Origin: Verrucomicrobiota bacterium
GTDB lineage: Bacteria > Verrucomicrobiota > Verrucomicrobiia > Limisphaerales > UBA9464
Reading direction: 5' to 3'
Length of the DNA stretch: 64,000 nucleotides
Assembly (NCBI GenBank): GCA_947471985.1
Contig: CANIZL010000002.1
Span: 62,001 to 126,000 of the forward strand
Position numbers and translations under genes: made by a program. Of this stretch, positions 22,432 through 45,024 are shown one piece after another. Under the pieces are notes generated by a model. It worked only from the letters and a program-made list of their open reading frames with translations. It ran no database searches and was not told the DNA's origin. Numbering within the stretch: the stretch's first letter is position 1; each line of letters opens with the position of its first letter.

Positions 22432-22729
22432 GATTCACCCCATCACGACCCTCGCTTCGGAAAAACGGGGATCAGACGCAGTACCGGACGTTAAGATCGA
22501 AGGAGTATTCCATCGGCTCCAGCGTCCTGGAAGCCGGGTGTAATCCGGAGCCCGGCAAACGCCGCCCGCAGCCCGGTCTGCCAGGCCAGGAAGTAGCCGG
22601 GATGCGAGCGACAGTCTCGACGGCTGCTGTCCCAACGAACAAAGCCCCAACCGTCGCCGCCCCAACCAAGAACCAAGAACTCTGGACCCGCCGCCTCCCC
22701 GCCCACCCCGCCTCCCCGCCCCCACCCCT

Positions 22730-22769
22730 CCATCACTCCATCACTCCATCACTCCATCACTCCATCACT
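22730..22769. repeat. Tandem repeat, five copies of CCATCACT
   Basis: Five perfect consecutive 8-bp units lie in a C-rich non-coding stretch just left of the cassette array. Such a tract may vary in length by slippage. There are no spacers, so it is not a CRISPR. Confidence 0.9.
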
Positions 22770-23011
22770 CCCCGCCCCCCCCCATCTCAAAACGGAGTTG
22801 AGTTCACAAGCCGTTGAAGCCATGTTGGATAAAAGCCAACCAATCGTTCCGAGGAAAAAGCCATGACCGCCCACTTAGTCATTTCCCGCCAAAACGGGCA
22901 CTATGCCCAAGAACTTGGGCAATGGTCCCCCCCGTCTCCGCCCTATGCCCAAGTTCTTTGTCTCTACGCGGAAATTTGGCCCCTAGGACAAAGCCCTCTT
23001 TGGCCCAATTG

Positions 23012-23926
23012 ATGTTCAGCGGAGATCCAGACGTTATGAATGATCAAGCGCAGCGGGCGGTACCAGGGCCGGAGGACCCGGTTTGCCAGGTCAATTGCTG
23101 GTACAGTTCCAACTATTGCGCTGTGGTTTCTCGGGACGGTTGGGTTCGATTGTTCAGTTTGGCGGACCGTTGCTTCCTGAGGGAGTTTTTCACTCATAAG
23201 GATTCCGGGGGAGTCAGCGTCGCACTCTCTGCGGATGATCAGCGTTGCTTCCTGGGCAGTTATTACGCCTGGGGCTTGGCTTGCTTCACCGTTTCCACTG
23301 GGGAACGTAAGTGGAAACGGGATGACTTGAGGCGTTTTCGCGGCCTGACATTCTCGCCTCAGCTCCACAGGCTCTTCGGCTATTTCGACGGTAAGGGTGC
23401 ACTGGAAATCGATCCTGAGACCGGTCAAACCGTGCAGAGCTTCCGCGGGACGACAGATTTGGTGGCGAGCCCGATCAATGATTTGGTGCTGTTCGGGGAC
23501 AAGAAGTCCTTGAGTCTTTGGCGTGGCACGCGTAGTAAGCTTTGGAGTGTTTCACGGGAGGGTTTTGCCGTCTTGGATGTGGCCTGGTCTCTAGACACCG
23601 TGGCTATTTCGGAGGCGAGGGATACCGATCGCGAGTTTGGAGTCCGTTGCTTTAGCACAGATGGCGAGCTGCTCTGGCGATATAATTCGCGTAAGACCCA
23701 GGTGTCTCCTTTAATGTATAATCCAGCCCGACGGGTGTACGTCGGCATTGATTACACGCCTGGAACAGAGGATCGTGTCCTTATTCACTGGGACGAGGCG
23801 ACTGGCACAATCCAGCTTGAACGCACGATACCTCCCAAGATGCATGGTGCGCTGTGCCAGCGGGCAGAATGCAGCTTCAGAATCAATTGGAGCACATGGG
23901 AATGCTCCCTGGGTGCAGCATGCTGA
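23012..23926 (+). CDS. Beta-propeller-like (WD40/PQQ-type) cassette protein
   Basis: About 304 residues with repeated segments of 40-45 residues that look like propeller blades: a short strand pattern such as CAVVSRDGWVRLFSL, GVSVALSADDQRCFLG, LTFSPQLHRLFGYFDGKG and VLDVAWSLDTVAISEA. No signal peptide is evident. No enzyme motif is seen; a scaffold or binding role would fit the fold. The ATG at 23012 is preferred because the upstream in-frame extension is low-complexity; an ATG at 23036 is also possible. An attC-like palindrome follows 10 nt after the stop, so it is probably the first cassette of the array. It is unusually long for a cassette ORF. Confidence 0.6.
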   Translation: MFSGDPDVMNDQAQRAVPGPEDPVCQVNCWYSSNYCAVVSRDGWVRLFSLADRCFLREFFTHKDSGGVSVALSADDQRCFLGSYYAWGLACFTVSTGERKWKRDDLRRFRGLTFSPQLHRLFGYFDGKGALEIDPETGQTVQSFRGTTDLVASPINDLVLFGDKKSLSLWRGTRSKLWSVSREGFAVLDVAWSLDTVAISEARDTDREFGVRCFSTDGELLWRYNSRKTQVSPLMYNPARRVYVGIDYTPGTEDRVLIHWDEATGTIQLERTIPPKMHGALCQRAECSFRINWSTWECSLGAAC

Positions 23927-23935
23927 TTGGGATGG

Positions 23936-24028
23936 CACATAATGCCAAACCAAATCAAGGCAGCGAAAGCCGGGAGACCACTCTCATTCCAGATCGAGCA
24001 CCCGCGGCCCGGCTTGGCTGGGTTATGA
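23936..24028 (+). other. attC-like site (degenerate)
   Basis: CACATAATGCCAAACCAA at the left pairs with TTGGCTGGGTTATGACG at the right, and the right core is GTTATGA. It begins 10 nt after a stop codon. The core boxes deviate from consensus. Confidence 0.4.
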
Positions 24029-24125
24029 CGTTCGGTCAAACCGGGGCAAGGATAGTTTTGGTGCGCTCCTCCGTTGCCAGAGGCTTCGTATCTACGCCTC
24101 CTCTGTGCGCCGTATTTTTCAGATT

Positions 24126-24494
24126 ATGAGAGCAGCGCCACTTTTCTGGTGCGAGGCGACGGGGCGACAGCGTTTCCATTTTCACTCCGAGATTCCCCGA
24201 GCCGCCGCCGCCGGCTTTGCCCGAACCCGGCGCTTCATTGAAATGGCTGGCGCGTCTCAGTTCGGAACTCCGCTTCGAGGCGGTGCCCGGTATTCGTTGC
24301 GGCCGGTCACTGAGCCGACATTCCTTGAAGCCGACATTGCCAGGAAAGGTTTCACACCTCGTGTCACCGATGCTGAATGGGAGGCCATCTTGCAGCGCGT
24401 CGCCGCGGTGTTCGGGCGGGAGTTGTGGCATCGCTGCCGGCTCATTCATCAGGCGGACCAGGCTACGGGAACCGGTCGGTTCGCCCTGAGGTGA
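24126..24494 (+). CDS. Hypothetical protein, doubtful
   Basis: A 122-residue frame from the ATG at 24126, Arg- and Ala-rich, without recognised motifs or membrane segments. The antisense strand also has a 183-residue open frame, so GC-driven openness is likely and the coding claim is weak. Sequence such as LRGGARYSLRPVTEPTF and ARKGFTPRV reminds me of dispersed non-coding repeats that are open in several frames, but I cannot verify this. There is no attC-like palindrome at its end. Confidence 0.25.
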   Translation: MRAAPLFWCEATGRQRFHFHSEIPRAAAAGFARTRRFIEMAGASQFGTPLRGGARYSLRPVTEPTFLEADIARKGFTPRVTDAEWEAILQRVAAVFGRELWHRCRLIHQADQATGTGRFALR

Positions 24495-24554
24495 TGCCAT
24501 CGCCAGGGGTGGCTGCGTTGCGTCGTTGACCTTTTGATTCCCGACCCCACGAGA

Positions 24555-24815
24555 ATGATAACAGTCATTGCCATGATCGATGTCCATGTGCAGCCTTCTA
24601 AAGTCGACGTGTGGATCGTTCCTGGTTCAGCCTCGGATCGAGGCGAAGGCGGTGAATTCGAAGGGGTCTTCATTACCGACTATCTCGATGCGCGAGAGAT
24701 CTGTGCTGGGCGTTGTTCCGATCCAGAAATGGCTTCCAATTTAATTGAGCGAATCCGGCTGAAGTTTAAGAAAGTAGGGACACATGTGAAAGTGGAGTGG
24801 ACGGCAAACGATTGA
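24555..24815 (+). CDS. Small hypothetical cassette protein
   Basis: An 86-residue acidic, soluble protein (starts MITVIAMIDVHVQPSK, ends KKVGTHVKVEWTAND). No motif is recognised. Its stop is 10 nt before a well-formed attC, as expected for an integron cassette. ATG codons at 24555 and 24573 are both possible starts; a TTG at 24534 would lengthen it. Confidence 0.5.
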   Translation: MITVIAMIDVHVQPSKVDVWIVPGSASDRGEGGEFEGVFITDYLDAREICAGRCSDPEMASNLIERIRLKFKKVGTHVKVEWTAND

Positions 24816-24824
24816 AATGAACAC

Positions 24825-24917
24825 GCCAAATCAGGTTGCTCCGGTGAACGGTCTGACTACGCCTCGGCTCGATTCTGGGCAGGATCGTCCGCGTGTTGCT
24901 GAGCAGCGGCGTTAGGC
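24825..24917 (+). other. attC recombination site
   Basis: The left half CGCCAAATCAGGTTGCTCC is complementary to the right half GAGCAGCGGCGTTAGGCG. The right core GTTAGGC matches the consensus exactly. The next ORF starts 15 nt later. Confidence 0.75.
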
Positions 24918-24931
24918 GACCGCGAACGCGC

Positions 24932-25288
24932 ATGAAGATACGCATCGTCTATGCTCTTTCAGCGGTTGTTTCTGTCGTGTTCGCTGTTATCGCGGGTTCC
25001 GCGATGTCGCGGGACACTGTCACCTTCAGAGATGCGGTTTCGGGCATTCCCATTCACGGTGCTCAGGTTGTTCCGGTTTATCCTTCCTTCAGAGGAGCAG
25101 CGTACACCACCGACAAGCGAGGCGTAGCGCGGGCTGGGGGTTTCGGACTACCACGCGGTGGTGCTGGATACTCGGTGGAGGTAACTGCGGCCGGCTACCA
25201 GCGTTTATCGGTTCCGATGTTCGGTTCTGCCACCGATCATTTGGAGGTTTCTTTGAGACTCACTCCAAAGCCTTACGGTCTAAGGTGA
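24932..25288 (+). CDS. Secreted small protein with carboxypeptidase-regulatory-like fold
   Basis: 118 residues. An N-terminal signal sequence (KIRIVYALSAVVSVVFAVIAGSA) is followed by a short beta-sandwich pattern: VTFRDAVSGIPIHGAQVVPV, then TTDKRGVARAGG and YSVEVTAAGYQRLSVP. This is the layout of carboxypeptidase D regulatory-like/transthyretin-like modules. It is probably periplasmic or membrane-anchored. The ATG at 24932 lies 15 nt after an attC core. A second ORF follows after 10 nt with no attC between, so both share a cassette. Confidence 0.6.
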   Translation: MKIRIVYALSAVVSVVFAVIAGSAMSRDTVTFRDAVSGIPIHGAQVVPVYPSFRGAAYTTDKRGVARAGGFGLPRGGAGYSVEVTAAGYQRLSVPMFGSATDHLEVSLRLTPKPYGLR

Positions 25289-25298
25289 ACAAACACGC

Positions 25299-25571
25299 AT
25301 GCCCCTTCTTGTCATAGCCGCGTATCATTGCGAGGTCGCCGGCAAGCCCACTGCCAGCGTGGATTACCAGATTCGGTATTTCGAATCCGATCTCATCGAG
25401 GAGGTTTTCTCGCGACTGCGGGCGGAGGCGCCCCAAGCGTACAGTAACTCCGCTGGACAGGAGGTTCGGTGGACTTTTCACGAAACGGTCGCTGTCGAGA
25501 CAAATGTGGTGTTCAAAGATGGCACTGAGGTCATTGGATTTATCACCGGCAAACCAACCCAAATCACCTAA
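25299..25571 (+). CDS. Small hypothetical cassette protein
   Basis: A 90-residue soluble protein (MPLLVIAAYHCEVAGKPTAS; later VRWTFHETVAVETNVVFKDG and EVIGFITG). It looks like an alpha/beta single domain; no family is recognised. The TAA stop overlaps the left core of the following attC, a common arrangement in cassettes. Confidence 0.55.
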   Translation: MPLLVIAAYHCEVAGKPTASVDYQIRYFESDLIEEVFSRLRAEAPQAYSNSAGQEVRWTFHETVAVETNVVFKDGTEVIGFITGKPTQIT

Positions 25572-25637
25572 CCTGGCGTTAGCCCTTATGACGAGTTCGG
25601 CATTGCTTCGACGCCATAGTTCAGCTTTACGTTAGGT
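25566..25637 (+). other. attC recombination site
   Basis: ACCTAAC (25566-25572) and GTTAGGT (25631-25637) are exact complements and fit RYYYAAC and GTTRRRY. Total length is 72 bp. The next ATG is 13 nt away. Confidence 0.8.
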
Positions 25638-25649
25638 GCCCGCCGCGTT

Positions 25650-26069
25650 ATGGCGCTCTTCGCCCTCATCTTTCTTGTGGTTGCGCTGATTCTTATCGGC
25701 GTCGGCATCGTTGTCGGGTTGATGGTGTGCGGTTTGGCCGCCGTTCTCGTGGCCGTTGGCGTCCTTTCCTCGTCCATCGTTGTTGGGTTGCTGACACGTC
25801 GTCCCTTGGCTGCGGTTCGCGTACTTCTGTTTCAGTGCGCTTTGCTCGCCGGGGTTCCTTCCGGGGTTCTTTGTGCGTGGCTTGTTTCCTACACGTTGGC
25901 CACCGGCAGTTCCGGGTGGCTCATCTCGCTCTATGGAGCCGTTGGTGGCGCGGTGGCCGGCGTTGTGATCGCATTCCTACTGGATTTCATCATTCGGTGG
26001 CTACACACTTGGGCCGCAGCGAAACTAACTGATAGGACGCGTCGTAGAATTATGAACCGGGTCGCCTAA
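25650..26069 (+). CDS. Small integral membrane cassette protein
   Basis: 139 residues with about four hydrophobic segments (ALFALIFLVVALILIGVGIV with the following VGLMVCGLAAVLVAVGVL; LLFQCALLAGVPSGVLCAWLV; SLYGAVGGAVAGVVIAFLLD). A basic C-terminal tail (TDRTRRRIMNRVA) is probably cytoplasmic. No family is recognised. It begins 13 nt after a strong attC, and its stop overlaps GCCTAAC, the left box of another attC-like site. Confidence 0.6.
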   Translation: MALFALIFLVVALILIGVGIVVGLMVCGLAAVLVAVGVLSSSIVVGLLTRRPLAAVRVLLFQCALLAGVPSGVLCAWLVSYTLATGSSGWLISLYGAVGGAVAGVVIAFLLDFIIRWLHTWAAAKLTDRTRRRIMNRVA

Positions 26070-26174
26070 CTTATCGATCCAATGAACCACCGGTAGACCC
26101 TTCCGTTCCGTGTTTCTCCCCATTCGTTTCCTTTGTTTGCGCTCAGGACACCGTTCTCCCGGGAGTCGTTCAAC
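26064..26174 (+). other. attC-like site with degenerate right core
   Basis: A perfect left box GCCTAAC (26064-26070) overlaps a stop codon. The best right partner is GTTCAAC at 26168-26174, which keeps GTT but departs from RRRY. Pairing inside the arms is weak, so the site may be decayed. Confidence 0.4.
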
Positions 26175-26204
26175 CTCGCGCTCGGCAGATGTACCCCAAG
26201 TCGT

Positions 26205-26576
26205 ATGAGTCGGCATCGCTATAGTCTTCCTGAAGAGCGTCCGCACGGCGTGACAGATCACGACGGGGGGCGTTCCTGCATTTGGCTCTTTGGTTGCCTC
26301 CTGATCCCGCCTGTTTTGGGCTACGTTTGGCGGGGTGCAACCTTCGGTGACTGGGGTTGGGGTGCCGTGGGGTTCCTCATCTCAATGGGTTTCGCTTGGT
26401 TTGTCAGTCACGGCCTGACTTCACGCCGTATGGAGTGCAACAGTGGCGTCTACACGCGTCTTAACCAACCGGTGAGGTACTGGGGCGTCATGCTGGTGTG
26501 GGTCGTGGCTTACCTGATGTCGGTTTCCGCATTTGTTCTCGTCCACGTTTCAGCAGCCGGTGGGATCCACCGATGA
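26205..26576 (+). CDS. Small membrane cassette protein
   Basis: 123 residues with a polar, His/Arg-rich N-terminus (MSRHRYSLPEERPHGV) and three hydrophobic segments (IWLFGCLLIPPVLGYVW; WGAVGFLISMGFAWFVS; WGVMLVWVVAYLMSVSAFVLV). No known family. The ATG at 26205 was chosen; an upstream in-frame start at 26133 would lie inside the preceding attC-like site. Confidence 0.5.
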   Translation: MSRHRYSLPEERPHGVTDHDGGRSCIWLFGCLLIPPVLGYVWRGATFGDWGWGAVGFLISMGFAWFVSHGLTSRRMECNSGVYTRLNQPVRYWGVMLVWVVAYLMSVSAFVLVHVSAAGGIHR

Positions 26577-26601
26577 ACGACTGGCCGTCACCGGGTGGGC
26601 T

Positions 26602-26691
26602 GCCCAACAAGGTCATTCCTGGGAAGCCGGCCCGGACGTCCCTTTTCCAATCGCTACTTTATTCAGGTGGGGTTACTGAGTTCCGTTGTTC
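26602..26691 (+). other. attC-like site (degenerate)
   Basis: The left box GCCCAAC matches RYYYAAC. AACAAGGTCATTCC pairs imperfectly with the right arm GGTTACTGAGTTCCGTTGTT. The right core GTTGTTC departs from RRRY. The next ATG is 12 nt away, the usual spacing. Confidence 0.45.
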
Positions 26692-26702
26692 GTTTGGAAG
26701 TC

Positions 26703-27137
26703 ATGAGTAACTATCGCGTTCATCTAGTCGTGGATCGTGAGGCGGGTGAGCGCCTTCAGGCGTTGCCGTTGGGCGAGCCAGCGTGGATCGTGGATTCTCC
26801 AAAGAATCATGGGGACATTGCGGAGCTCTGGCGGGTTCGGCCGGACCCAAGTCACCTGACTGGAATTACGGCATTTGAAGATGATCTGAGTGCCGCACCC
26901 GAGATGCTGGCCATCAGCGTCCTGGCCGATATCGACCTGCACCATGGCGTGTATTCGCACCAGCCGCCGTACGACGTGTTACGAGTGATTGGCGCCCGTC
27001 GGTCCGCGGAGCTGTTGAGTGAGGCGGCGGAGTTCGGATTGACGGAAGTACGAGGCGCTGATTCCGAGTTCGAGGTGTACCGACCAGAGATGACCGAACC
27101 TGAGGCGCCACGCGCGAGCTGCCCGCTCTCGCAGTAG
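26703..27137 (+). CDS. Hypothetical cassette protein
   Basis: A 144-residue soluble, acidic protein (MSNYRVHLVVDREAGERLQA; later HGVYSHQPPYDVLRVIGARR and LLSEAAEFGLTEVRG). Family not recognised. Base use looks like real coding sequence and no long antisense frame competes. After its stop another frame continues as sensible protein sequence (from about 27110 to 27327) without a normal start, so the gene may have been longer and frameshifted near 27110. Confidence 0.5.
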   Translation: MSNYRVHLVVDREAGERLQALPLGEPAWIVDSPKNHGDIAELWRVRPDPSHLTGITAFEDDLSAAPEMLAISVLADIDLHHGVYSHQPPYDVLRVIGARRSAELLSEAAEFGLTEVRGADSEFEVYRPEMTEPEAPRASCPLSQ

Positions 27138-27365
27138 CCGAAATCGGCGAACAAGCAGATGCCCTGTTGGCTGTTGGCGGGTTGATCGAGTTTCTACGAA
27201 AATCTCCGGAATGCGAAGCATCTGAGTCTGGGTCGATTCTATATACGGTGGGCGTAACCATCCGCAGCGGCAGACCCGGCATGGCGTTGTGGTTTGGAAT
27301 TCAGGCGGCCCGTGTATTGGGCCGATGACTTTGGTTCACTGGGCGTAGTCAACCGAGCCAGGGCT

Positions 27366-27620
27366 ATGCGAAAACAGGAGCGAGCCTTCCGGTTTCGAAG
27401 CCCCCGTACGACGACGCTCTTCGCCGATCCGATGGGGATCTGCCTCGGTGGTGCAGGGTTGACTGCCTATTTTTGGCCGGTTGCGTTGGTTTTTGGCGGA
27501 CTGGCCTGGGTGGGTCTGATCTTCCAGGAGTGGAGCGGGCGACGCTACCACTGCCCAGAGTGCGGTGTGCGCATTTCCAATCGACCCGCTCCGCCAAGTG
27601 CACCGATTGAATACCATTGA
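27366..27620 (+). CDS. Small membrane protein with C-terminal CxxC
   Basis: 84 residues: a basic N-terminus (MRKQERAFRFRSPRTTT), two hydrophobic segments (MGICLGGAGLTAYFWPVAL and ALVFGGLAWVGLIF), then YHCPECGVRIS, half of a zinc ribbon-like CxxC. A full zinc ribbon would need a second CxxC, so dimer-shared metal or redox use is possible; this is inference. A TTG at 27294 could extend it. No attC-like site bounds it clearly. Confidence 0.4.
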   Translation: MRKQERAFRFRSPRTTTLFADPMGICLGGAGLTAYFWPVALVFGGLAWVGLIFQEWSGRRYHCPECGVRISNRPAPPSAPIEYH

Positions 27621-27787
27621 GTGCCGTGCCACATCATCCGGGATTCAGGATTCGTCGAAGCCAAACCAGAGCTTTCGTGAGAGCGCCCAGCAGGAGACCA
27701 CAGGGAACGCCGGGATAGCGCTCTCGTTTCCACTCGACGCTAGGAACCCAACACGCCTGGGTTTGTCGGTAAGCCATTCCCAACGCC

Positions 27788-28090
27788 ATGCCACGCGAGA
27801 CATTCCGAAACCGCTGGCCGCGTCATGTGCCGGGCAGATTTTACGTGGATCCAGGCTGCCTCGATTGCAACCTGTGCCGGTCGCTCGCACCTGGTATTTT
27901 CGAGCGCGATGAGGACCACGGCACTTCGTACGTGGCTCGCCAACCCGAGACACCTGAGGAAGTTGACCGGTGTCGTGAGGCAGTCGCAGGTTGTCCACAG
28001 GACAATGTTCACGACGATGGTCTGCAGTTCGATTGGCAGGCAATACCTTCGGAGGTATCCTGGGCTCGCCCGCAGTCGGGACCTGACTGA
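27788..28090 (+). CDS. Single-cluster 4Fe-4S ferredoxin
   Basis: 100 residues. CLDCNLCRSLAPGIF gives CxxCxxC followed by the typical aPgiF, and a final VAGCPQDNVH supplies the fourth cysteine (CP), so one [4Fe-4S] cluster of the monocluster ferredoxin type is expected. TPEEVDRCREAVAGCP matches the family pattern 'aieaCPv.aI' loosely. It is a cytoplasmic electron carrier. It sits among cassette ORFs, an unusual place for a ferredoxin, and its redox partner is unknown. An attC-like site follows 15 nt after the stop. Confidence 0.75.
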   Translation: MPRETFRNRWPRHVPGRFYVDPGCLDCNLCRSLAPGIFERDEDHGTSYVARQPETPEEVDRCREAVAGCPQDNVHDDGLQFDWQAIPSEVSWARPQSGPD

Positions 28091-28105
28091 GATGAAGACG
28101 ACGAG

Positions 28106-28162
28106 GCCTACGGACGCGCTCCAGTGGACGGAACCCAGGTGTCACGCTCAGTGACGATTGGA
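28106..28162 (+). other. attC-like site (decayed cores)
   Basis: GCCTACGGACGCGCTCCAGT at the left pairs with CTCAGTGACGATTGGAAGGC at the right. The arms look like an attC, but the right core GATTGGA has lost the GTT. Confidence 0.35.
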
Positions 28163-28228
28163 AGGCCATCGGCGGCTGGCACGCGACACTGACCCAGCCA
28201 GGAAGCCATTCGTGAAAGTTTTTGAATT

Positions 28229-28435
28229 ATGAGGTTAAAATGGGAGTACAAGACGCTGAAGATTCTGACGGACGTCGGCTTCTTCTCCGGGACTGACTTT
28301 GATGCCGTTCGGCTTGCCGAGTTGCTGAACGGCCATGGAGCGGAAGGCTGGGAGTTGGTATCGGTATTTGATATTGAGAAGGTGCAGCGGGGGTCGAAAT
28401 TTGTCGTGGTCGTCATGAAGCGGCCGGTCGAATGA
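28229..28435 (+). CDS. DUF4177-family small protein
   Basis: 68 residues with the DUF4177 pattern: an N-terminal KWEYKTLKI strand, LAELLNGHGAEGWELVSVF, and the end KFVVVVMKRP. The family is widespread, small and uncharacterised. It is a typical integron cassette passenger. The attC-like site begins 3 nt after the stop. Confidence 0.75.
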   Translation: MRLKWEYKTLKILTDVGFFSGTDFDAVRLAELLNGHGAEGWELVSVFDIEKVQRGSKFVVVVMKRPVE

Positions 28436-28437
28436 TG

Positions 28438-28551
28438 TTATAACAACGACGCGGCCCAAGCAGGCACTCCAGCGAAGCCGGCGATGGCGTCGCGTTTGCA
28501 AGTGTTGCCTCCCGTGCGCCGGATTGCTGGGCTTGGGTCGTCAGGTTGCTT
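28438..28551 (+). other. attC-like site
   Basis: TTATAAC (28438-28444) and GTTGCTT (28545-28551) are the outer boxes. Inner arms ACGACGCGGCCCAAGC and GCTTGGGTCGTC are complementary apart from two extra bases. The next ATG is 15 nt away. Long for an attC (114 bp). Confidence 0.55.
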
Positions 28552-28565
28552 GAATACATGCAGCT

Positions 28566-28985
28566 ATGTTTAGCCTCTTCCGACGACCAAAGACGAAACC
28601 TTACAGCTGGAAGAGAGAGCACACCAGGTTGTGGGAGTCGCTCGTTCCAGCGGAGGGTCAGGCCGACACGTTGCAGGGCGAGCTCATACGCATCGCGGGC
28701 AAGCTGACTGATGAAGCATTCCGAAACGGCAACCTGAATTGGGATGCTGAGCATGAGAAGATGTGGCGTTTCGTCGGCCGCCATCTCGACGATCCGCAGA
28801 CATTCAGCGAGGCGGAGCGACGAGTCATCCGAGACAAAATTGAGGAGATCGTCCGCGATAATGAAGCGCCGGATTTAAGTGGTGAAGGATGCTGCTATTA
28901 CATCATCAGCGAGCGAGTCGTGGACTGGTGCATGGCACATCCCGCACCCATTCCACACCAGAAGGACCTTGACTTGAATCGATGA
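28566..28985 (+). CDS. Hypothetical cassette protein
   Basis: A 139-residue soluble helical protein (MFSLFRRPKTKPYSWKREHT; NWDAEHEKMWRFVGRHLDDP; GCCYYIISERVVDWCMAH). Family not recognised. It lies cleanly between two attC-like sites, starting 15 nt after one and ending 8 nt before the best-formed site of the array, so it is one complete cassette. Confidence 0.6.
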   Translation: MFSLFRRPKTKPYSWKREHTRLWESLVPAEGQADTLQGELIRIAGKLTDEAFRNGNLNWDAEHEKMWRFVGRHLDDPQTFSEAERRVIRDKIEEIVRDNEAPDLSGEGCCYYIISERVVDWCMAHPAPIPHQKDLDLNR

Positions 28986-28992
28986 ACAGACT

Positions 28993-29088
28993 GCCCAACA
29001 ACAAGACGCTCCAGCGAACCGCGGCGGATCGTCGCGGTTGCCATTAGGGCCTCTCGGTGCCGCCTTTGCTGAGCTATCTCCGTTAGGC
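28993..29088 (+). other. attC recombination site
   Basis: Left box GCCCAAC (28993-28999) and right box GTTAGGC (29082-29088) both fit consensus. Arms AAGACGCTCCAGC and GCTGAGCTATCT pair with the usual single-base bulges. 96 bp; the next ATG is 9 nt away. Confidence 0.8.
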
Positions 29089-29096
29089 GACATCGG

Positions 29097-29522
29097 ATGT
29101 CTCCCGGCAAAACGAACAACTTGCCGGATTATCCCAGAATCGGTGCCGCAGAGCTATCCGGGCTCCAGCTCGATCCGGATTCTGCCAGGCACTTCGAGCG
29201 ACGCTTTGCACGAGGGTTGCTTGGCGGTGGCGTACTGGCCTTCGGTGGGTGCGCAGGCACCCAGGGTTTATTCCACTTCGGCGTTATTGAGATGCTGGGG
29301 TTTGCGATCGGCATCCTCGGGAGTTTCGTGGTGGGCCTGGCGCTCTCTCTCTGGACACACCAATGCATGATGCGAGCGCAGCCAAGGAGCGCTCGGAGTG
29401 GCCGTCTGATGCAGCCCTTCATCATTCACCCCGTTGATTCACCAGACGTTTATGAAATCGTGTCTGTCGATAAAGCTTCGGGAACTTACTTCAGGCGGAA
29501 TTATGTCGAGCATGGCGGCTGA
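29097..29522 (+). CDS. Membrane cassette protein of unknown function
   Basis: 141 residues. A soluble N-terminus (to about residue 40) with FERRFARGLLGGGVLAFGG, one or two hydrophobic segments (FGVIEMLGFAIGILGSFVVG with LALSLW), then a soluble C-terminal part with IHPVDSPDVYEIVSVD. No family is recognised. It starts 9 nt after an exact attC core. Confidence 0.55.
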   Translation: MSPGKTNNLPDYPRIGAAELSGLQLDPDSARHFERRFARGLLGGGVLAFGGCAGTQGLFHFGVIEMLGFAIGILGSFVVGLALSLWTHQCMMRAQPRSARSGRLMQPFIIHPVDSPDVYEIVSVDKASGTYFRRNYVEHGG

Positions 29523-29706
29523 AGCAACGCCGCCGAAAGGCTCGGGGAAGACGAGCCGTCGGCCCGCCGTTCCGTGCGACGCCGTGCGGAGTTTGCGGAG
29601 CGCAGGATGCGCGCTGCGGTCGCTGGTCTCGGCGGTTGCTGACCTGTCTTGTTTTGCGTCGCCCCGCCGAGACGCCGGCTATCTTTCCTTCCTTTGTTGG
29701 CTTGTG

Positions 29707-29841
29707 ATGAGCATCAGTGTCACGTCTGGCTGCGCCACAAGTGGCCACAGTTCAGTGCCGGCCAGCGAGAAGAAGGGCGGGGCCATTTTGTCCGATCGGT
29801 CGTTTTGGGGTTGGTTGCAGGACGCGTATGGGACGCATTGA
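29707..29841 (+). CDS. Very small putative lipoprotein
   Basis: 44 residues from the ATG at 29707 (MSISVTSGCATSGHSS). The hydrophobic run just before this ATG in the same frame (YLSFLCWLV) joined to SISVTSGC would make a lipoprotein signal with Cys at the cleavage point, so the true start may be a non-ATG codon further left. The tail ends SFWGWLQDAYGTH. The 184 bp to the preceding ORF hold no clear attC. Confidence 0.3.
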   Translation: MSISVTSGCATSGHSSVPASEKKGGAILSDRSFWGWLQDAYGTH

Positions 29842-30023
29842 GACAGCAATGATGTTGAGATGGAACACGTGATGGGTTTGAAACGGTCGGTATTGCGACA
29901 CGGCCGATTGGACACTGGCGGGGATGCGATGACCACGTTGCCCTGCCTTGAGCTGCTGCGAACCCGGGTTGAGCTCCGCGATTGTCAGCGTGGCGTCCTC
30001 TGCTCCGGGTCGGCGAGGTTGGG

Positions 30024-30464
30024 TTGATCGTCCGTTCGCCGCACAGGACCGCGCGGAATTCCAGCAGCGTAGACAGTCTTCGAGCGCATGAGGAGATTGT
30101 GTCCCTAGCGCGCGGCATCTTATCTGGAGCCGTAGGTTTTATCGAAGGAGCGCGGTTCATTGCCAAGTTGGGTCACGCACTTGGATTTGAACGCGATCCG
30201 GACATGGCATTCCTCCTCGGCGTCGATTCTGAGACCGACCATTTGCCCGTCGGGGAGGTTCGCCGGCATTGGGCTGCGGATGCGCTACGAAGCAAGGACC
30301 TGGAATTACGGGAGTGCGAGTTGCTCTTCCGTGAACAAACGTTTCAAAGCTGCCTGAATTTGATTCAGAGATATGGCAATTGCCTGCCCGACCAAGATCA
30401 CTCGGGTGAACCCGGCCTTGGCGTCGCGCTTCCAATCGTTACCCTTTCCAGGCCCGGTCATTGA
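30024..30464 (+). CDS. Hypothetical cassette protein with SETDHLPVGEVR motif
   Basis: About 146 residues, helical. It has ARGILSGAVGFIEGARFIAKLG, then LLGVDSETDHLPVGEVRRHW and a C-terminal ECELLFREQTFQSCLNLIQR. The motif (acidic-T-D-H-LP) is familiar from small proteins often found in integron cassettes, possibly the DUF2489-like group; function unknown. No ATG is available. The TTG at 30024 has a GAGG 6 nt upstream; a TTG at 29982 or a GTG near 30100 are alternatives. The last 25 residues read into the following attC-like site. Confidence 0.55.
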   Translation: MIVRSPHRTARNSSSVDSLRAHEEIVSLARGILSGAVGFIEGARFIAKLGHALGFERDPDMAFLLGVDSETDHLPVGEVRRHWAADALRSKDLELRECELLFREQTFQSCLNLIQRYGNCLPDQDHSGEPGLGVALPIVTLSRPGH

Positions 30465-30479
30465 GTTCCGGCGTTCGGC
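30386..30479 (+). other. attC-like site overlapping the end of an ORF
   Basis: GCCCGAC (30386-30392) and GTTCGGC (30473-30479) are near-complements, each one base off consensus. ATCACTCG pairs partly with TTGAGTTCC. 94 bp. Confidence 0.45.
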
Positions 30480-30557
30480 GGCGTGGTTTCACCGTTCCGT
30501 GGAGGCAGAAGTCCCCATTTAGTTTGAGGTCCAGACACCCGAAGATCGAATTCCAAG

Positions 30558-31304
30558 ATGCGCAATCTAGATTTCAGTTCCTGGCAGGCGGTGATCACGA
30601 CATCGCTCGGGTTGATAGTCGTTACCGTCATGATGGTGGGTATCCGCCTGCTGTTGATGGAGACGGTGCAGCAGCGCCGCAATCGCGAGAACCGTCAGAT
30701 CAACGAACGTCTGCGCACGTTGATCGCCGCCTACAAGACGCTGGGAGGTTCCTTCACCGGCGAACTGGCGGTCGATCCGACGCACCTGCGCGATCTCCTG
30801 GCGTCCGCCGGGGGCGGAGACACAAAGGCGGCAGAGGACGTCCTGGCCTCCGTCTCCTTTGATCGTTCGCGCCGCATCCGCGATGCCGTTGAAGGGGCGC
30901 TGTCGGACGTGATCCTACTCGGCACCGAGCAGCAGGTGCTGCTAGCAGCGCGGGCGGCGACCGATCTGGTCGCGGGACGCCCGGTCCACACCGATGAACT
31001 GGTGGTCTCGCTACGTGACTTCATTCGCAAGGTGCTTGACCTGGAGCCCGTGCCAACGAAGTCGGCGATCCCGAAGCAGGGGCCGACTCGCCCCGGCGGC
31101 GGCGGCGGCGGCGGAAAGGGCAAGGGCAACGGGGATACAGGCGGTGGTGACTGGGCCGGCACGAAGCAGGACGGCAAGGGGGCGGGGGCCGGCGGAGGTA
31201 GCGCCGCCGGGGGAGCAATGGGCTTTGGGCTGGGTGGCGGCCTGGCGCCGGACGCGGAGGGCGATCCAGGGCGCGAGGCCGATTCGAGACCCTGGCGTGG
31301 ATAA
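30558..31304 (+). CDS. Membrane-anchored protein with glycine-rich tail
   Basis: 248 residues. One N-terminal membrane helix (WQAVITTSLGLIVVTVMMVG, continuing IRLLL) is followed by ENRQINERLRTLIAAYKTLG, a cytoplasmic helical domain (to about residue 170) and a Gly-rich disordered tail (from about 175). The pattern FSSWQAVITTSLGL and LRTLIAAYKTLGGSFTG is familiar to me from conserved hypothetical proteins in proteobacteria, but no function is known. The GC content and codon use are closer to the host than neighbouring cassettes. It starts 78 nt after an attC-like site, and its stop overlaps another. Confidence 0.65.
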   Translation: MRNLDFSSWQAVITTSLGLIVVTVMMVGIRLLLMETVQQRRNRENRQINERLRTLIAAYKTLGGSFTGELAVDPTHLRDLLASAGGGDTKAAEDVLASVSFDRSRRIRDAVEGALSDVILLGTEQQVLLAARAATDLVAGRPVHTDELVVSLRDFIRKVLDLEPVPTKSAIPKQGPTRPGGGGGGGKGKGNGDTGGGDWAGTKQDGKGAGAGGGSAAGGAMGFGLGGGLAPDAEGDPGREADSRPWRG

Positions 31305-31367
31305 AATAAGTTGATTTGGTTTAGTGTTCGACGCCGAACCAGCCGCTGCTGAGCTTGGTCGTTAGCC
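31302..31367 (+). other. attC-like site, right half clear
   Basis: The right arm GCTGCTGAGCTTGGTCGTTAGCC is typical, with one mismatch in the core. The left arm after the stop (TAAAATAAGTTGA) pairs poorly. Confidence 0.4.
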
Positions 31368-31695
31368 CTCGCGAACCATGAAGGTCTCCGAGCACCTTAA
31401 ATATTGCGCCATGGGATTTTCGCCGAGGCGTGTTGCCTATCCGGTAGCGGCCCGAGGATTTGTCGGCATACCGCTTCAATTTGCAGATGATTGGAGAGTC
31501 GGCGCGGCAGCCGTTCGATTTGGGGTGCTCGTGGGCGAGGCAGAATCCGGTGGGCTACACCTTTGGCGATCCCAATCCACGCCAACGCAACGCATCACCC
31601 CTGGTTTCGCCAGCTCTCCGAAACCATACGGTCTGGGCCGTTGTCCTGGAACGCCGGTGTTGAGTTCTGAGCCGGACGGCGTAATTTCCAGCACG
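31368..31695 (+). other. Gap between attC-like site and hicB
   Basis: About 330 bp. An ATG at 31378 opens a frame that runs into hicB and would add 106 residues, but these look non-coding and no HicB has such an extension. The stretch is probably leader or promoter DNA of the hicBA cassette, since toxin-antitoxin cassettes usually bring their own promoter. No clear -35/-10 pair is seen. Confidence 0.35.
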
Positions 31696-31914
31696 ATGAA
31701 GTTTGAGTTTACGGCAATCGTGGAGGCTGCTCCCGAGGGAGGATACTGGGCGGTGTGCCCTGAGGTGCCGGGCGCCAACGGTCAAGGCGAGACCGTCGAC
31801 GACGCAAAGCTTAGCTTACGTGATGGGATCCGGCTCATCCTGGAGGATCGGCTTGAGGATATGTGCCGCGGTTTACCCGCGGAGGCGATCCAGACTGTCG
31901 TCACCTCCGAATGA
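31696..31914 (+). CDS. hicB: HicB-family antitoxin
   Basis: 72 residues of the short HicB type, a partial RNase H-like fold: KFEFTAIVEAAPEGGYWAVCPEVPG (start and the GYWAVCPEVPG block) followed by ANGQGETVDDAKLSLRDGI. It binds and neutralises the mRNA interferase HicA. There is no fused DNA-binding domain visible, so self-regulation may be weak. The ATG at 31696 is the family start. The stop overlaps the hicA start (ATGA). Confidence 0.85.
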   Translation: MKFEFTAIVEAAPEGGYWAVCPEVPGANGQGETVDDAKLSLRDGIRLILEDRLEDMCRGLPAEAIQTVVTSE

Positions 31915-32090
31915 AGCGACGCGACTTGGAGCGTAGGCTTCGACATGCTGGATGCTATTTGAAGCGAGAAGGAGCGGCCCATTCACTCTGGATGAATCCT
32001 CGCACCGGCGTTGTAGAGGCGGTTCCCCGACACAGTGAGGTGAAGGAGCCACTCGCACGGAAGATCCTGAGATCTCTCGGCGGCGAGTGA
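31911..32090 (+). CDS. hicA: HicA-family mRNA interferase toxin
   Basis: 59 residues with a dsRBD-like fold. It starts KRRDLERRLRHAGCYLKREG, and the catalytic His is in GAAHSLWMNP (position 24). VPRHSEVKEPLARKILRSLG completes the family pattern 'vPrH.e.i...l.r.Ilk.lG'. HicA cleaves mRNA and stops translation when free of HicB. The order hicB-hicA with a 4-nt overlap ensures antitoxin first. The pair lies at the end of the cassette array, where toxin-antitoxin cassettes can hold neighbouring cassettes in place. Confidence 0.85.
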   Translation: MKRRDLERRLRHAGCYLKREGAAHSLWMNPRTGVVEAVPRHSEVKEPLARKILRSLGGE

Positions 32091-32094
32091 CCGG

Positions 32095-32160
32095 GCCCAA
32101 CACAAACGCGAAGTAGGCCAAGCGCCAAGGGTGCAATTTTTGGTGGGCGCCGGGTTGGTC
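32095..32160 (+). other. attC-like site after hicBA
   Basis: Left box GCCCAAC (32095-32101) fits consensus. The right box GTTGGTC is one base off. Inner arms GCCAAGCGCC and GGTGGGCGCC are partly complementary. 66 bp, beginning 5 nt after the hicA stop. Last recognisable site of the array. Confidence 0.55.
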
Positions 32161-32852
32161 GATTTACGGGGGGTGGAAGAAGGCGCAGGTTGAAGCTTGG
32201 TCCTCTGGGAAAATTGCTTCGGCGGGGGGTTCGTGGTGCTTTACGAACCGGTATTTGCCAAGTGCCCCTGGTGGCTTTCCGACGATTTCCGATTCGCGTC
32301 CATGCTTACATCCGCGGTTCCTGCTCCGGGCTCGCAATTCAACCGCGTCAGGGTTGTTGAATTCAAGGGGACGGCGACCCGGGGTAACCCGTGACGGGTA
32401 ACCCCGGGCTGGTTGATTGTATCCCGTTGGGATGGGGGGGCGAGATGCCGCGGTCGTGCCCGATGGTCCGGTTCGGGCTGTGGCATCGCCTTCAGGGGCA
32501 CCGGCACGAGCTTCGCTCTCGGTTTGTTGCCCATAGTGCCGCGTCTTGGTGAGGCCCGGTGATAAAATGTTTTGCGGTAAACGGCGGGCAGACGCCGTCC
32601 CGGCAAGTGTCATTTACCGCGAGGGCATGGGAAATGTCGGGTTCCGCGTGCATGGGGAGCCGGGGTAGGATGCGCTTGGTGGAAGGTGGGCAGAGGGGGC
32701 CAACCCGCTTGGATTTGCTGATGCCAATGGCCAGCTCATTGGCCGTAAGCTGTTTATCGAAAGGTTCAAGCATCGAAACTCAGTCATCAGGGAGGCTCAC
32801 CTTCTGGAAGAGCCACGGTCCCATTTGGACAGCTACAGATGTGAGAAATGGG
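32161..32852. other. Gene-free stretch with inverted repeats right of the array
   Basis: No convincing ORF is seen. It contains a 31-bp palindrome (32378-32408), a nested hairpin in which GCGGTAAA (32574) pairs with TTTACCGC (32613-32620) around an inner ACGGCG/CGCCGT, and the motif ATCCCGTTGGGAT. These look like dispersed REP-type repeats, but no second copy occurs in the window. Confidence 0.4.
32378..32408. repeat. REP-like palindrome
   Basis: CCCGGGGTAACCCG, three bases, then CGGGTAACCCCGGG: a 14-bp inverted repeat with one mismatched pair. On RNA it would form a very stable hairpin. No transposase lies nearby. Confidence 0.6.
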
Positions 32853-40355: not shown

Positions 40356-43300
40356 ATGTCTCCCGGTTTTGCTGGAATCCTTGCCCGGCCTTGGGTCGTC
40401 CTGGGCTGGCTGGTGGGAATCGCCTTCCTGCCGGCGGCGCGTGCCGCTGCCCCTGTGGACTTCAATCGCGAGGTCCGCCCCATCCTTTCCGAGCATTGCT
40501 TCACCTGCCACGGGCCGGATGAAAGCAAACGGAAGGGTGGACTGCGGCTGGATCGGCAGGAGGACGCCTTCCGGGAATTGAAATCGGGACACGCGGCGCT
40601 GGTGGGCGGGGATATCGCCCGGAGCACCTTGGCCCAGCGGATTGTGGCGACGGATCCCGAAGAGGTCATGCCGCCGCCGAAGCACCAGAAGCCGCTCTCG
40701 CCGGTGCAAATTGAAGTGCTCCAACGCTGGGTGCGCGAGGGGGCCAAGTGGCAGAACCATTGGTCGTTTGTCCCGCCGGTGCGGCCGGCCGCGCCCGCCA
40801 CGCCCGCCGCGGCGGGCTCCGCCTGGGCGAAGTCCCCGCTGGATGCCTTCATCCTCAAGCGCCTGGATGCCGCCGGCTTTCAGCCGAATCCCGAAGCGGA
40901 TCGGGCGACGCTCCTGCGCCGGGTGACCCTGGATCTCACCGGACTGCCGCCGGCGATTGAAGAGGTCGACGCCTTCCTGAATGACGCCTCCCCGAAAGCC
41001 TACGAGAAGGTGGTGGATCGATTGCTGGCGTCCTCACGGTACGGGGAACGGATGGCGCAGAACTGGCTGGATGTGGCGCGGTTTGCGGACACCAGCGGCT
41101 ATCACTTCGACGGCGTCCGGTTCCTGTGGCTGTGGCGGGACTGGGTCATCAATGCCTTCAACGAAAACGTGCCCTTCGATCAGTTTACGGTCGAACAGCT
41201 GGCCGGGGATCTCCTCCCGGGGGCCACGCCGGAACAGCGCCTCGCCACCGGTTTCGTGCGCAACAACATGACCAATGACGAAGGCGGGGCGGATCCGGAC
41301 GAGTACCTGAACAAGTATGTCGTGGATCGCGTGAACACCGTCGGCTCCGTGTGGTTGGGGCTCACCGTCGGTTGTACGGAGTGTCACGATCACAAGTACG
41401 ATCCGATGAGCACCAAGGAGTTTTACCGATTGTACGCCTTCTTCCACAACGTACCGGAAAAGGGCCTGGACCGGATCCGCTCCGACAATCCGCCGCCCCG
41501 ACTTCCGGTGCCCACGGCGGAACAGGCGCGGCGCCTGGTGGAGGCGGAATTCCGCCTGCGCGATGCGGAGAAGACCTTGCAGGATCGCATCAACGAACTG
41601 GGTGAGACGCAGGAGAAATGGGAGCGCGAACTTTCCGCGCGGTCTCCGGCAGGATCCGCAGTGTCCAATCAGATCGCCTCGATCAAATTGGACGGCGCGT
41701 TGCGCGGCACGGTGAAGGGAGCGGAGGTGGAGGGTCGCTTGGTAGGGGCGGAGAAAGCCGAGTTCGTCAACGGGCGGTTCGGTCAGGCTTGGAAGCTCGA
41801 CGGCAAGGTGTCAGCGGAGTTTGTGCCAGCGCCCGTCCTCGAGCGGACGAACGCGTTTTCGGTGTCCGCCTGGGTCCGCTTCGACGGAAATGGGGCAATC
41901 CTGAGCCGCATGGAAAAAGGCCCGGGCTACCGCGGAATGGATTTGCTGATCAGCGACAAGATTCTGTCCGTGCACCTGATCCACCAATGGCCGGACAATG
42001 CCGTGAAGGTGCGGACCAAACAGGCGCTGACTCCGGGCCGCTGGCTCCATGTGGCGGTGAGCTATGACGGCTCGAGCAAGGCGGCCGGTGTGCGGATTTA
42101 TGTCGATGGCGTGCGGCGCGAGCTGGATACGGAGAAGGACGCGCTGAGCGAGACGATCCTCAACGGCGAACCCCTTCGATTGGGTGCCCGCAATGGCGAC
42201 TCGATGTTGACCGGCCAACTGGATGACCTGCGGATTGTGGAGGGGGTGCTTTCGGCCGAGGACGTGCAGCGGCTCACCTTTGAGGGCTATGCGGCGATTG
42301 TGGCCAAGTCCCGCGGCAATCGCTCCGACGAGGAACGCGGGGATCTGGCGCGGTTCTACAAGGAGAATTACGCCGTCGATTATCTTCGCTCGGAAACCGC
42401 CCTCACAAAGGCGCGTCGGGAAAAGGACGCGATCATGGGTCAGATACCCACGTCGCTGGTGATGGAGGAAATGGATCCTCCGCGCACGACGCGCGTGCTG
42501 ATCCGCGGGGATTTCCGCAATCCCGGTGAAGTGGTCACCGCGGGGACCCCGGCATTCCTGCCCGCCCTGCCCCCGGGTTCGAGCAATCGATTGCACCTCG
42601 CCCGTTGGCTCGTGGCGCCGGAGAATCCGCTCATGGCCCGGGTCACCGTGAATCGTTATTGGGCGATGCTCTTTGGTGCCGGTTTTGTGAAGACGGTGAA
42701 TGACTTTGGCTCGCAGGGTGATTGGCCGAGTCATCCGGAACTGCTGGATTGGCTGGCCTGCCAATTCCGCGATGGCGGGACGGTGGGCGGGGTCACGGTG
42801 AAGCCTTGGGATGTGAAATCGCTGATGCGCCTGCTGGTGACGAGTGCGACCTACCGGCAATCGGCGGCGGTGAGCCCGGAGAAATTGGAGCGCGATCCCT
42901 ACAACCGCCTGCTGAGCCGCGGGCCGCGGGTGCGATTGGATGCTGAGTTTATTCGTGACCAGGCGCTGGCGGTGTCGGGGTTGATGAACCCGCAGATTGG
43001 CGGTCCGAGTGTGAAGCCGTATCAACCGGCCGGTTTGTGGGACGGCACCGATTCGCCGTTTGTGCAGGATCATGGCGAGCTGTTGTATCGGCGCGGACTC
43101 TACGTTTTCTGGCGGCGATCGGCGCATTACCCTGCGTTCGCTACCTTTGATGCCCCGAACCGCGAAGTTTGCACGCTGCAGCGGCAACGGACGCAGACGC
43201 CCCTGCAATCGCTGGTGCTGATGAACGATCCGGCCTTTGTGGAAGCGGCGCGTGGGTTGGCCCAACGGGTGTCGCGCGAAGAACCGACGGACGTGCGCCG

Positions 43301-43541
43301 GCGCTTGGTGCGGGCGTTTCGGCACACCTTGGGCCGGCCGCCGCAGGACGACGAAGTGGGTGTGTTGCAAAAGACGTACGACCAGCAACTGGCCACCTTC
43401 CGGGCCGACACCGCCGCGGCGGAAAGTCTCCTGAAGGTGGGTGAATCCAAGGGCGGCGACGCGGTGGCCTCGGCGGAACTCGCCGCGATGACAGCCGTGG
43501 CCAACGTGCTGCTGAACCTCAACGAGACGATCACCAAATAA
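40356..43541 (+). CDS. PSCyt1-DUF1549-LamG-DUF1553 multidomain cytochrome c protein
   Basis: 1061 residues, exported through a signal peptide (ARPWVVLGWLVGIAFLPAARA region). In order: a cytochrome c domain with CFTCHG (C48, C51, H52), a DUF1549 (PSCyt2) domain from about 165 (SPLDAFILKRLDAAGFQPNP), a LamG/concanavalin-like domain (about 440-630, SVSAWVRFDGNGAILSRMEK) and a DUF1553 (PSD1) domain from about 745 (LHLARWLVAPENPLMARVTV). This build is characteristic of Planctomycetes and Verrucomicrobia and is often tied to degradation of complex sugars, but the reaction is not established. The partner DUF1501 gene follows 13 nt after the stop. Confidence 0.93.
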   Translation: MSPGFAGILARPWVVLGWLVGIAFLPAARAAAPVDFNREVRPILSEHCFTCHGPDESKRKGGLRLDRQEDAFRELKSGHAALVGGDIARSTLAQRIVATDPEEVMPPPKHQKPLSPVQIEVLQRWVREGAKWQNHWSFVPPVRPAAPATPAAAGSAWAKSPLDAFILKRLDAAGFQPNPEADRATLLRRVTLDLTGLPPAIEEVDAFLNDASPKAYEKVVDRLLASSRYGERMAQNWLDVARFADTSGYHFDGVRFLWLWRDWVINAFNENVPFDQFTVEQLAGDLLPGATPEQRLATGFVRNNMTNDEGGADPDEYLNKYVVDRVNTVGSVWLGLTVGCTECHDHKYDPMSTKEFYRLYAFFHNVPEKGLDRIRSDNPPPRLPVPTAEQARRLVEAEFRLRDAEKTLQDRINELGETQEKWERELSARSPAGSAVSNQIASIKLDGALRGTVKGAEVEGRLVGAEKAEFVNGRFGQAWKLDGKVSAEFVPAPVLERTNAFSVSAWVRFDGNGAILSRMEKGPGYRGMDLLISDKILSVHLIHQWPDNAVKVRTKQALTPGRWLHVAVSYDGSSKAAGVRIYVDGVRRELDTEKDALSETILNGEPLRLGARNGDSMLTGQLDDLRIVEGVLSAEDVQRLTFEGYAAIVAKSRGNRSDEERGDLARFYKENYAVDYLRSETALTKARREKDAIMGQIPTSLVMEEMDPPRTTRVLIRGDFRNPGEVVTAGTPAFLPALPPGSSNRLHLARWLVAPENPLMARVTVNRYWAMLFGAGFVKTVNDFGSQGDWPSHPELLDWLACQFRDGGTVGGVTVKPWDVKSLMRLLVTSATYRQSAAVSPEKLERDPYNRLLSRGPRVRLDAEFIRDQALAVSGLMNPQIGGPSVKPYQPAGLWDGTDSPFVQDHGELLYRRGLYVFWRRSAHYPAFATFDAPNREVCTLQRQRTQTPLQSLVLMNDPAFVEAARGLAQRVSREEPTDVRRRLVRAFRHTLGRPPQDDEVGVLQKTYDQQLATFRADTAAAESLLKVGESKGGDAVASAELAAMTAVANVLLNLNETITK

Positions 43542-43554
43542 CGGAATTTCTGTC

Positions 43555-45024
43555 ATGTCCGCCTTGAATCTCTTCCCGTTTCGCGCCGAAGTGGATGCCG
43601 CCCTGACCCGTCGCGCCTTTCTCACCCGCAGTACCACGGGCCTGGGAACCATGGCGCTGGCGAGCCTGTTGAATCCCCGGCCGGCGCTCGCCGCCGCGGC
43701 GGCGGACACCACCGGTCTGACCGGCGCGCTGAAACAGCTGCATTTCGCCCCGAAGGCCAAACGCGTCATCTACCTCTTTCAATCCGGCGCACCGTCGCAT
43801 CTCGATCTGTTCGATCCCAAGCCCAAGCTCACCGAGATGACCGGTCAGGAGCTGCCGCCCAGCGTGCGCAAGGGACAGCGCATCACCGGCATGACGGCCG
43901 GGCAGGCGGTTCTGAAATGTGTCGGCTCAGCGTATGAGTTTCAGCGGTATGGTCGCAGTGGCGTGGAGTTGAGCCGGATGTTGCCGCACACCGGCAGCAT
44001 TGTGGACGACATCACGTTGATCCGTTCCATGGTGACGGATCCGATCAATCACGATCCGGCGGTGACGTATTTCGGCACCGGCAGCCAGCAGCCGGGTCGA
44101 CCCACCATGGGTGCGTGGCTCGCCTACGGCCTGGGCAGTGCGAACGAGAATCTGCCGTCCTACGTTGTGCTCACCAGCGGCAGCGGGGGGCAATCCCTGC
44201 AGGCGCGTTATTGGGGCAATGGTTTCCTTTCGGCGAACTATCAGGGCGTGCAGATGCGCAGCCAGGGCGATCCGGTGCTGTACGTTTCCAATCCACCGGG
44301 ACTGAGCGGCACCGGCCGACGGCAGTTGATCGACGCCATGCAGGAGTTGAATCGGCGACAACTGGGCGCGCTCGGGGATCCGCAGATTGCGACGCACATT
44401 GAGAATTACGAACTGGCGTTCCGGATGCAGACGAGCGTGCCCGAGCTGATGGATATTGCGAAGGAACCGCGCGAGGTCCTGGAATTGTACGGCGCGGAGC
44501 CGGGCAAATCGTCGTTCGCCAACAACTGCCTGCTGGCGCGTCGCCTGGCGGAACGCGGGGTGCGGTTCATCCAGTTGTGCCATCGCGATTGGGATCATCA
44601 CGGCGGGCTGCCGGACGGCATCAAGGCGCAGACCCGCGCCACCGATCAGGGCAGCGCGGCGTTGATCAAGGATCTCAAGCAACGGGGATTGCTGGACGAC
44701 ACGCTGGTGATCTGGGGCGGCGAGTTTGGCCGCACGGCGTATTCCCAGGGCGACATCAGCAAGACCAGCTTCGGACGGGATCATCATCCCCGATGCTTCT
44801 CGCTCTGGGTGGCCGGCGGCGGCACCAAGGCGGGCACGGTGATCGGACAGACCGATGATTTCGGCTACAACATCGTGGATTCCCCGGTCAGCGTGCATGA
44901 TCTGCACGCCACACTGCTGCACCTGCTGGGCATCGATCATCTCCAGTTCACCTATCGTTCCGAGGGCCGCGATTACCGGCTGACGGACGTGGCGGGAGAA
45001 TTGGTGAAGTCGCTGATCGCGTAG
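43555..45024 (+). CDS. DUF1501 protein, Tat-exported
   Basis: 489 residues with a twin-arginine signal (TRRAFLTRSTTGLGTMALAS). The body is an alkaline-phosphatase-like fold of the DUF1501 family: KRVIYLFQSGAPSHLDLFDP, then NHDPAVTYFGTG, HRDWDHHGGLPDG, VIWGGEFGRTAYSQG and GRDHHPRCFSLWVAGGG, which supply the likely metal ligands (Asp, His). It always accompanies PSCyt/DUF1553 proteins and here forms a two-gene operon with one (13-bp gap). Probable periplasmic hydrolase; substrate unknown. Confidence 0.93.
   Translation: MSALNLFPFRAEVDAALTRRAFLTRSTTGLGTMALASLLNPRPALAAAAADTTGLTGALKQLHFAPKAKRVIYLFQSGAPSHLDLFDPKPKLTEMTGQELPPSVRKGQRITGMTAGQAVLKCVGSAYEFQRYGRSGVELSRMLPHTGSIVDDITLIRSMVTDPINHDPAVTYFGTGSQQPGRPTMGAWLAYGLGSANENLPSYVVLTSGSGGQSLQARYWGNGFLSANYQGVQMRSQGDPVLYVSNPPGLSGTGRRQLIDAMQELNRRQLGALGDPQIATHIENYELAFRMQTSVPELMDIAKEPREVLELYGAEPGKSSFANNCLLARRLAERGVRFIQLCHRDWDHHGGLPDGIKAQTRATDQGSAALIKDLKQRGLLDDTLVIWGGEFGRTAYSQGDISKTSFGRDHHPRCFSLWVAGGGTKAGTVIGQTDDFGYNIVDSPVSVHDLHATLLHLLGIDHLQFTYRSEGRDYRLTDVAGELVKSLIA

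Follow-up and report, generated by a model that had tools for sequence, protein, structure and literature searches.

An ageing cassette array in a Verrucomicrobiota genome: a chromosomal integron that has kept its attI and apparently lost its integrase gene

How does a row of gene cassettes come to stand on a chromosome with no integrase gene beside it? The question is raised by positions 23012-32160 of a 64-kb stretch of a Verrucomicrobiota genome, the whole of which is called the window below. The earlier note read this region, from the letters alone, as a cassette array with attC-like sites and no integrase (CALIN). The array is real and ageing, and it is one of several attI-headed arrays in the genome. 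We consider it a chromosomal integron in which attI has been kept and the intI gene lost, and put the probability of this reading at roughly 0.87.

The cassette array and its attC sites

Folding of single DNA sequences gave the window sites no support: the five sites tested fold no better than shuffled sequences (z from −0.5 to +1.2). Covariance models were therefore used. The first model, R1, was trained on seven attC sites from another contig of this genome, C148, with two rows shortened by one spacer base, which aids the alignment. The second, R2, consists of 63 attC sites from other contigs and from relatives, and the window was excluded from training of both. Searched over the 64-kb window at E ≤ 10, R1 gives eight matches, all of them on the plus strand and within 23944-31367; the chance probability of such a placement (plus strand, inside 23012-32160) is about 7e-10. 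R2 finds ten attC sites at E ≤ 0.0032, all on the plus strand between 23.9 and 31.4 kb, which amounts to ten sites over 7.4 kb as counted by models of this analysis's own and not by those of IntegronFinder. Two more sites are marginal by R2, and beyond these the window holds a single, weak match, which lies within the array on the minus strand (24803-24857, E 0.31). A covariance-model search had been named beforehand as the check on the earlier note, and with all significant matches falling inside it, the array stands confirmed.

The 63-site alignment shows the design expected of attC. In 87% of its cells the bases pair, against 26-41% after sliding by one to three columns, and changes on both sides occur in 227 cells against 84.5 in shuffles, counts that are biased in favour of the structure because the alignment had been fitted to it. 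According to model scores and covariation, the R″/L″ and L′/R′ arms pair around an extrahelical base and a variable centre, and several window sites are individually decayed. A sequence-only scan with fixed AAC/GTT cores recovers just part of the sites, and an Rfam search returned no match either at the gathering threshold or at E ≤ 5. The poor single-sequence folds are what would be expected if there were no integron at all, only ordinary small genes among chance palindromes. That explanation is refuted by R1 and R2, with ten matches that share a strand and lie within 9 kb, against none at E ≤ 0.0032 (R2) in the other 55 kb, and by a site that is 89% identical to an attC of C148; we give it practically no credence. 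Since the three C148 sites tested fold well (z about −3) whereas those of the window do not, the array is better described as partly decayed.

All features of the array lie on the plus strand. The first cassette ORF (23036..23926), beta-propeller-like by a PQQ_2 match below the cut-off, has its ATG 15 nt past the core of the attI-like head and is followed by the attC at 23944..24036 (R2 35.3 bits, E 6.7e-7). The right core of the next site, 24220..24329 (22.2 bits), is decayed; positions 24108-24315 are 82% identical to C148:6992-7200, a cassette end common to both arrays. An ORF at 24534..24815 without a Pfam family precedes the weak attC at 24825..24917 (22.7 bits, E 0.0013). Then come two ORFs, 24932..25288 (CarboxypepD_reg-like by Pfam, below the cut-off) and 25299..25571 (no Pfam family), and the first marginal site, 25566..25637, where both cores (CCTAAC/GTTAGG) are intact and the stem is poor (15.0 bits, E 0.14; fold z −0.5). 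The ORF at 25650..26069, again without a Pfam family, ends in an attC with a decayed right core, GCTCGGC (26064..26186, 25.3 bits), and the site at 26602..26694 (30.4 bits) is about 71% identical to the one starting at 30386. Behind it lie an ORF of no Pfam family (26703..27137) and the second marginal match, a possible attC remnant (27252..27344, 11.2 bits, E 1.3).

The right half of the array begins with ORFs for a ferredoxin (27788..28090, Fer4_13, Pfam 2.4e-17) and a DUF4177 protein (28229..28435, Pfam 2.4e-10), which precede an attC with decayed cores at 28454..28546 (55.8 bits, E 2.9e-12). An ORF without a Pfam family (28566..28985) leads to the attC at 28993..29088, whose cores GCCCAAC/GTTAGGC are intact (58.8 bits, E 4.7e-13). 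Another such ORF (29097..29522) and a weak attC (29940..30024, 21.2 bits) follow. The ORF at 29982..30464, of uncertain true start, is DUF2489-like below the Pfam cut-off; the attC at 30386..30479 (R1 50.7 bits, R2 57.9 bits) is the one 89% identical to a C148 site (C148:9642-9724). An ORF of no convincing family (30558..31304) is followed by a short attC-like site of 35 nt, 31333..31367, with cores GCCGAAC/GTTAGCC (23.4 bits). The last cassette (31696..32090) holds a HicB-like antitoxin (Pfam 4.9e-4, below the cut-off) and a HicA toxin (5.8e-8), and no attC was found downstream of it.

The strongest window sites by R2 are thus those starting at 28993, 30386 and 28454. The three best sites singled out earlier included the first of these, rightly, together with the weak 24825-24917 and the marginal 25566-25637, and omitted the other two strong ones. 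Each attC goes with one or two small ORFs, in one orientation and with starts close behind the core (about 8-20 nt past 24917, 26694, 28546 and 29088), which bears out the claim that cassette genes begin just after the right core. The cargo is cassette-like, with HicAB, DUF4177 and many unknowns. Just right of the array, 32227-32453 is a dispersed repeat with 38 matches in the genome, some of them 75-87% identical over 160-330 bp, and farther along the window (40356-45024) a PSCyt1/PSCyt2/PSD1 gene and then a DUF1501 gene form a planctomycete-type cytochrome pair.

The attI-like head and the missing integrase gene

An attI-like head stands before the first cassette. Over its 234 bp (22787..23020, plus strand) it shares 88.5% identity with C148:4892-5125. 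On C148 intI is followed by a leader and this by the cassette ORFs with eight attC sites, so that the head corresponds to the insertion site and the leader. The similarity between the window and C148 stops exactly at the core GTTCRGC, and the cassettes beyond it are unlike. This core, the crossover point, reads GTTCAGC in the window (23014..23020) and GTTCGGC in C148 and in the relative UBA6176. At the other end, aligning the window head with C148, where intI starts with GTG at 4912, places its left end about seven codons inside intI. Homology to a segment lying between intI and the first cassette, and an end precisely at a GTT core that forms the cassette junction, identify the head as a putative attI. 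Within it the units CTATGCCCAAG/CTAGGACAAAG recur and 22909-22921/22946-22958 form an inverted repeat, an arrangement that may resemble that of a site binding several recombinase molecules. A sigma-70-type promoter was searched for in the head and not found. Directly left of the head, where intI was lost, an 8-bp tandem repeat, CCATCACT, is present in about six copies (22722-22771).

The integrase itself was sought with the TIGR02249 profile over the whole genome, which gives one match above the cut-off, at C148:3803-4744 (460 bits, cut-off 265). This intI is typical and has one in-frame TAG. The remainder of C148, beyond its array, agrees with the window genome in composition (GC 0.641); the genome is a draft of 180 contigs, which does not give the relative placement of C148 and the window contig, C2. 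In the window, tblastn with the C148 IntI found no significant match and no remnant of intI past the first codons. The statement that no intI is present therefore holds for the window, but not for the genome. A functional intI beside an attI, as in a complete integron, is found at neither place, since the window has no intI and the C148 copy carries a stop codon. The earlier CALIN reading was right as to an array in a Verrucomicrobiota genome with no integron integrase nearby, but the retained attI head at 22787-23020 was not recognised, and "CALIN" is an incomplete label for it. Because the head is a copy of the C148 intI-attI region that ends at the core, the array can be understood as an integron minus its intI.

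A search for intI and further arrays in the rest of the genome, which had been proposed as a check, yielded the C148 gene and arrays at C115, C135 and C97. Heads of this attI type number six (window, C148, C115, C75, C135 and C97), five of them intI-less. In at least four of these five (window, C115, C135 and C97) attC sites follow downstream on the same strand within about 1 kb. The left ends of the copies vary, and some continue into intI. A stub beside the C115 head matches IntI residues 2-75 at 50% (E 2.8e-11), plus residues 50-138, and one beside the C135 head matches residues 1-45 (E 0.001). As C115 and C135 keep these decayed 5′ pieces of intI, which like the array, the attI homology and the core-precise breakpoint are observed directly, the head copies most likely descend, judging by sequence, from whole platforms that lost intI. 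With platform copies elsewhere in the genome, one of them still with intI (C148, in-frame TAG), loss of intI with retention of attI is a repeated event. The deletion in the window is inferred from the other copies because nothing of the gene past its first codons remains there.

Two other origins have to be weighed against this evidence. Several copies per genome might suggest an unrelated, MITE-like dispersed repeat that happens to stand before the array. Such a coincidence is hardly credible: among the copies is the region between intI and attI itself, same-strand attC sites follow four of the five that lack intI, the similarity between the window and C148 ends at the core, the left ends differ from copy to copy and in some cases extend into intI, and genus g3 repeats the design with an attI of another sequence. 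Alternatively, an IntI located elsewhere could have founded the array by off-target insertion of cassettes. This is a published route to CALINs (PMC8618304) and agrees with the absence of a local intI, but it is contradicted by the very start of the array, where 234 bp copy the attI region up to the core, and we hold it to be very improbable.

Loss of intI from a complete platform would have proceeded as follows. Cassettes would have been put in at the window attI by IntI, giving an attI (core 23014-23020) at the head of about ten small-gene cassettes, with attC sites between them that are now variously decayed. The adjacent intI would then have been deleted, leaving only a few initial codons (22787 to about 22807), an order of events that is the presumed one, and the deletion was perhaps favoured by a cost of intI. 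The leader and attI were likely retained since a promoter in the leader would drive the first cassettes.

Heads in relatives and the possible action of an integrase in trans

Arrays of this kind had been called best known from Proteobacteria, a view that missed how common integrons are in this lineage: intI is found above the cut-off in 32 of 116 related genomes, and attC matches in 35 of 50 genomes of the family. Two family members (G010 and G023) have 16-18 attC matches and no intI match at E ≤ 1e-60. The integron integrases encoded by seven viral contigs from IMG/VR (L094-L100) share 45-56% identity with an IntI of Verrucomicrobiota. At the window locus itself, the nearest orthologues of the flanking genes in relatives are about 44% identical or less, so that no empty site was seen.

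Heads recur in these relatives. Verrucomicrobia bacterium UBA6176 (G006) has an intI-linked attI and further heads, at least five in all. Its C54 head, 95% identical, retains only about 65 residues of intI (1-65, mostly ~90% identical). Older attI heads, 72-78% identical, are present on its contigs C95 (L120:8499) and C146 (L238), the former about 8 kb from the intI-linked head on one contig. G039 has three heads; within the stretches compared, their loci and those of the UBA6176 heads are not orthologous.

In genus g3 the platform design recurs with a different attI sequence. One genome, G044, carries on C206 an intI without stops and an attI, and on C123 a 95.5% identical copy of the 289-bp attI unit without intI. 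In the sister genome G009, contig C42 is orthologous to G044:C123: the left flanks are 97.2% identical along 6485 bp. The ~300 bp that adjoin the head on the left are a member of a repeat family of this genus, but the longer flank upholds the orthology. The head is in the same place in both, neither has intI, and the first cassettes are unrelated from the core onward. An intI-less head in both genomes suggests that the integrase-less state predates their split. Followed by a later change of cassettes, this is most simply read as the action of an IntI encoded elsewhere; the sequences thus suggest that cassettes have turned over without a local integrase, probably by IntI in trans.

Recurring heads in the window genome and its relatives may mean that one integrase serves several arrays. 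Verrucomicrobiota of this group would then run a distributed integron, in which one intI serves several intI-less chromosomal attI sites and arrays such as that of the window still exchange cassettes through IntI in trans. Such trans service adds to the history of intI loss and does not replace it. The G009/G044 pair, the stop-free intI of G044 with its near-identical attI copy, the multiplicity of heads (six here, at least five in UBA6176, three in G039) and the ability of IntI1 to recombine an attI1 placed on another plasmid in an assay (PMC9668308) all speak for it. Other observations weigh against it. Homologous exchange between heads could swap arrays too, as the three g3 heads, roughly equidistant from one another, are identical in their last ~54 bp. 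The G009 contig ends after one cassette, and the sole IntI of that genome (C11) is of another type. A search for near-identical cassettes between the arrays of the window genome gave 82% at best. We regard the general idea as possible, though with less than even odds. For the window array today, action of IntI in trans is doubtful in view of the stop codon in the C148 intI and the decayed attC sites, and the array may now be silent.

Relation to known integrons

Verrucomicrobiota were already among the integron-bearing phyla, and three origins have been proposed for CALINs: off-target insertion, loss of intI and rearrangement (PMC8618304). Retained attI and intI stubs argue for the second as the origin of a set of arrays. 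A literature search, with subscription papers outside its reach, returned no account of genomes with several attI heads that lack an integrase; as far as found, dispersed heads of this kind are undescribed. IntegronFinder does not detect attI outside class 1 (PMC9024848), so that such heads would be systematically missed. If IntI does serve them in trans, a genome has not one but many positions at which a first cassette is expressed, and the way of counting integron evolvability changes. The orthologous pair in G009 and G044 makes this idea directly testable.

The window array shares with the CALINs of the IntegronFinder classification, of which genome surveys count 2961 against 2760 complete integrons (PMC9024848), several attC sites of the same orientation, cassette genes and no intI nearby. 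It differs in keeping an attI head homologous to an intI-bearing platform of the same genome, and in being one of several. The integron of C148, with a TIGR02249 integrase, an attI and eight attC sites, is like it in attI type (88%) and attC type (up to 89%), but on C148 an intI, bearing one TAG, is present and the attC sites fold well; the window array shows neither feature. The sedentary chromosomal integron of Xanthomonas (PMC12444791) likewise has mostly unknown cassettes, and the parts of that report available to us describe progressive decay and loss of intI, with extra arrays off the main locus as secondary CALINs. In those parts intI stays at ilvD and the other loci are CALINs for which a copy of attI is unreported, whereas the extra arrays of the Verrucomicrobiota genome carry attI copies of their own.
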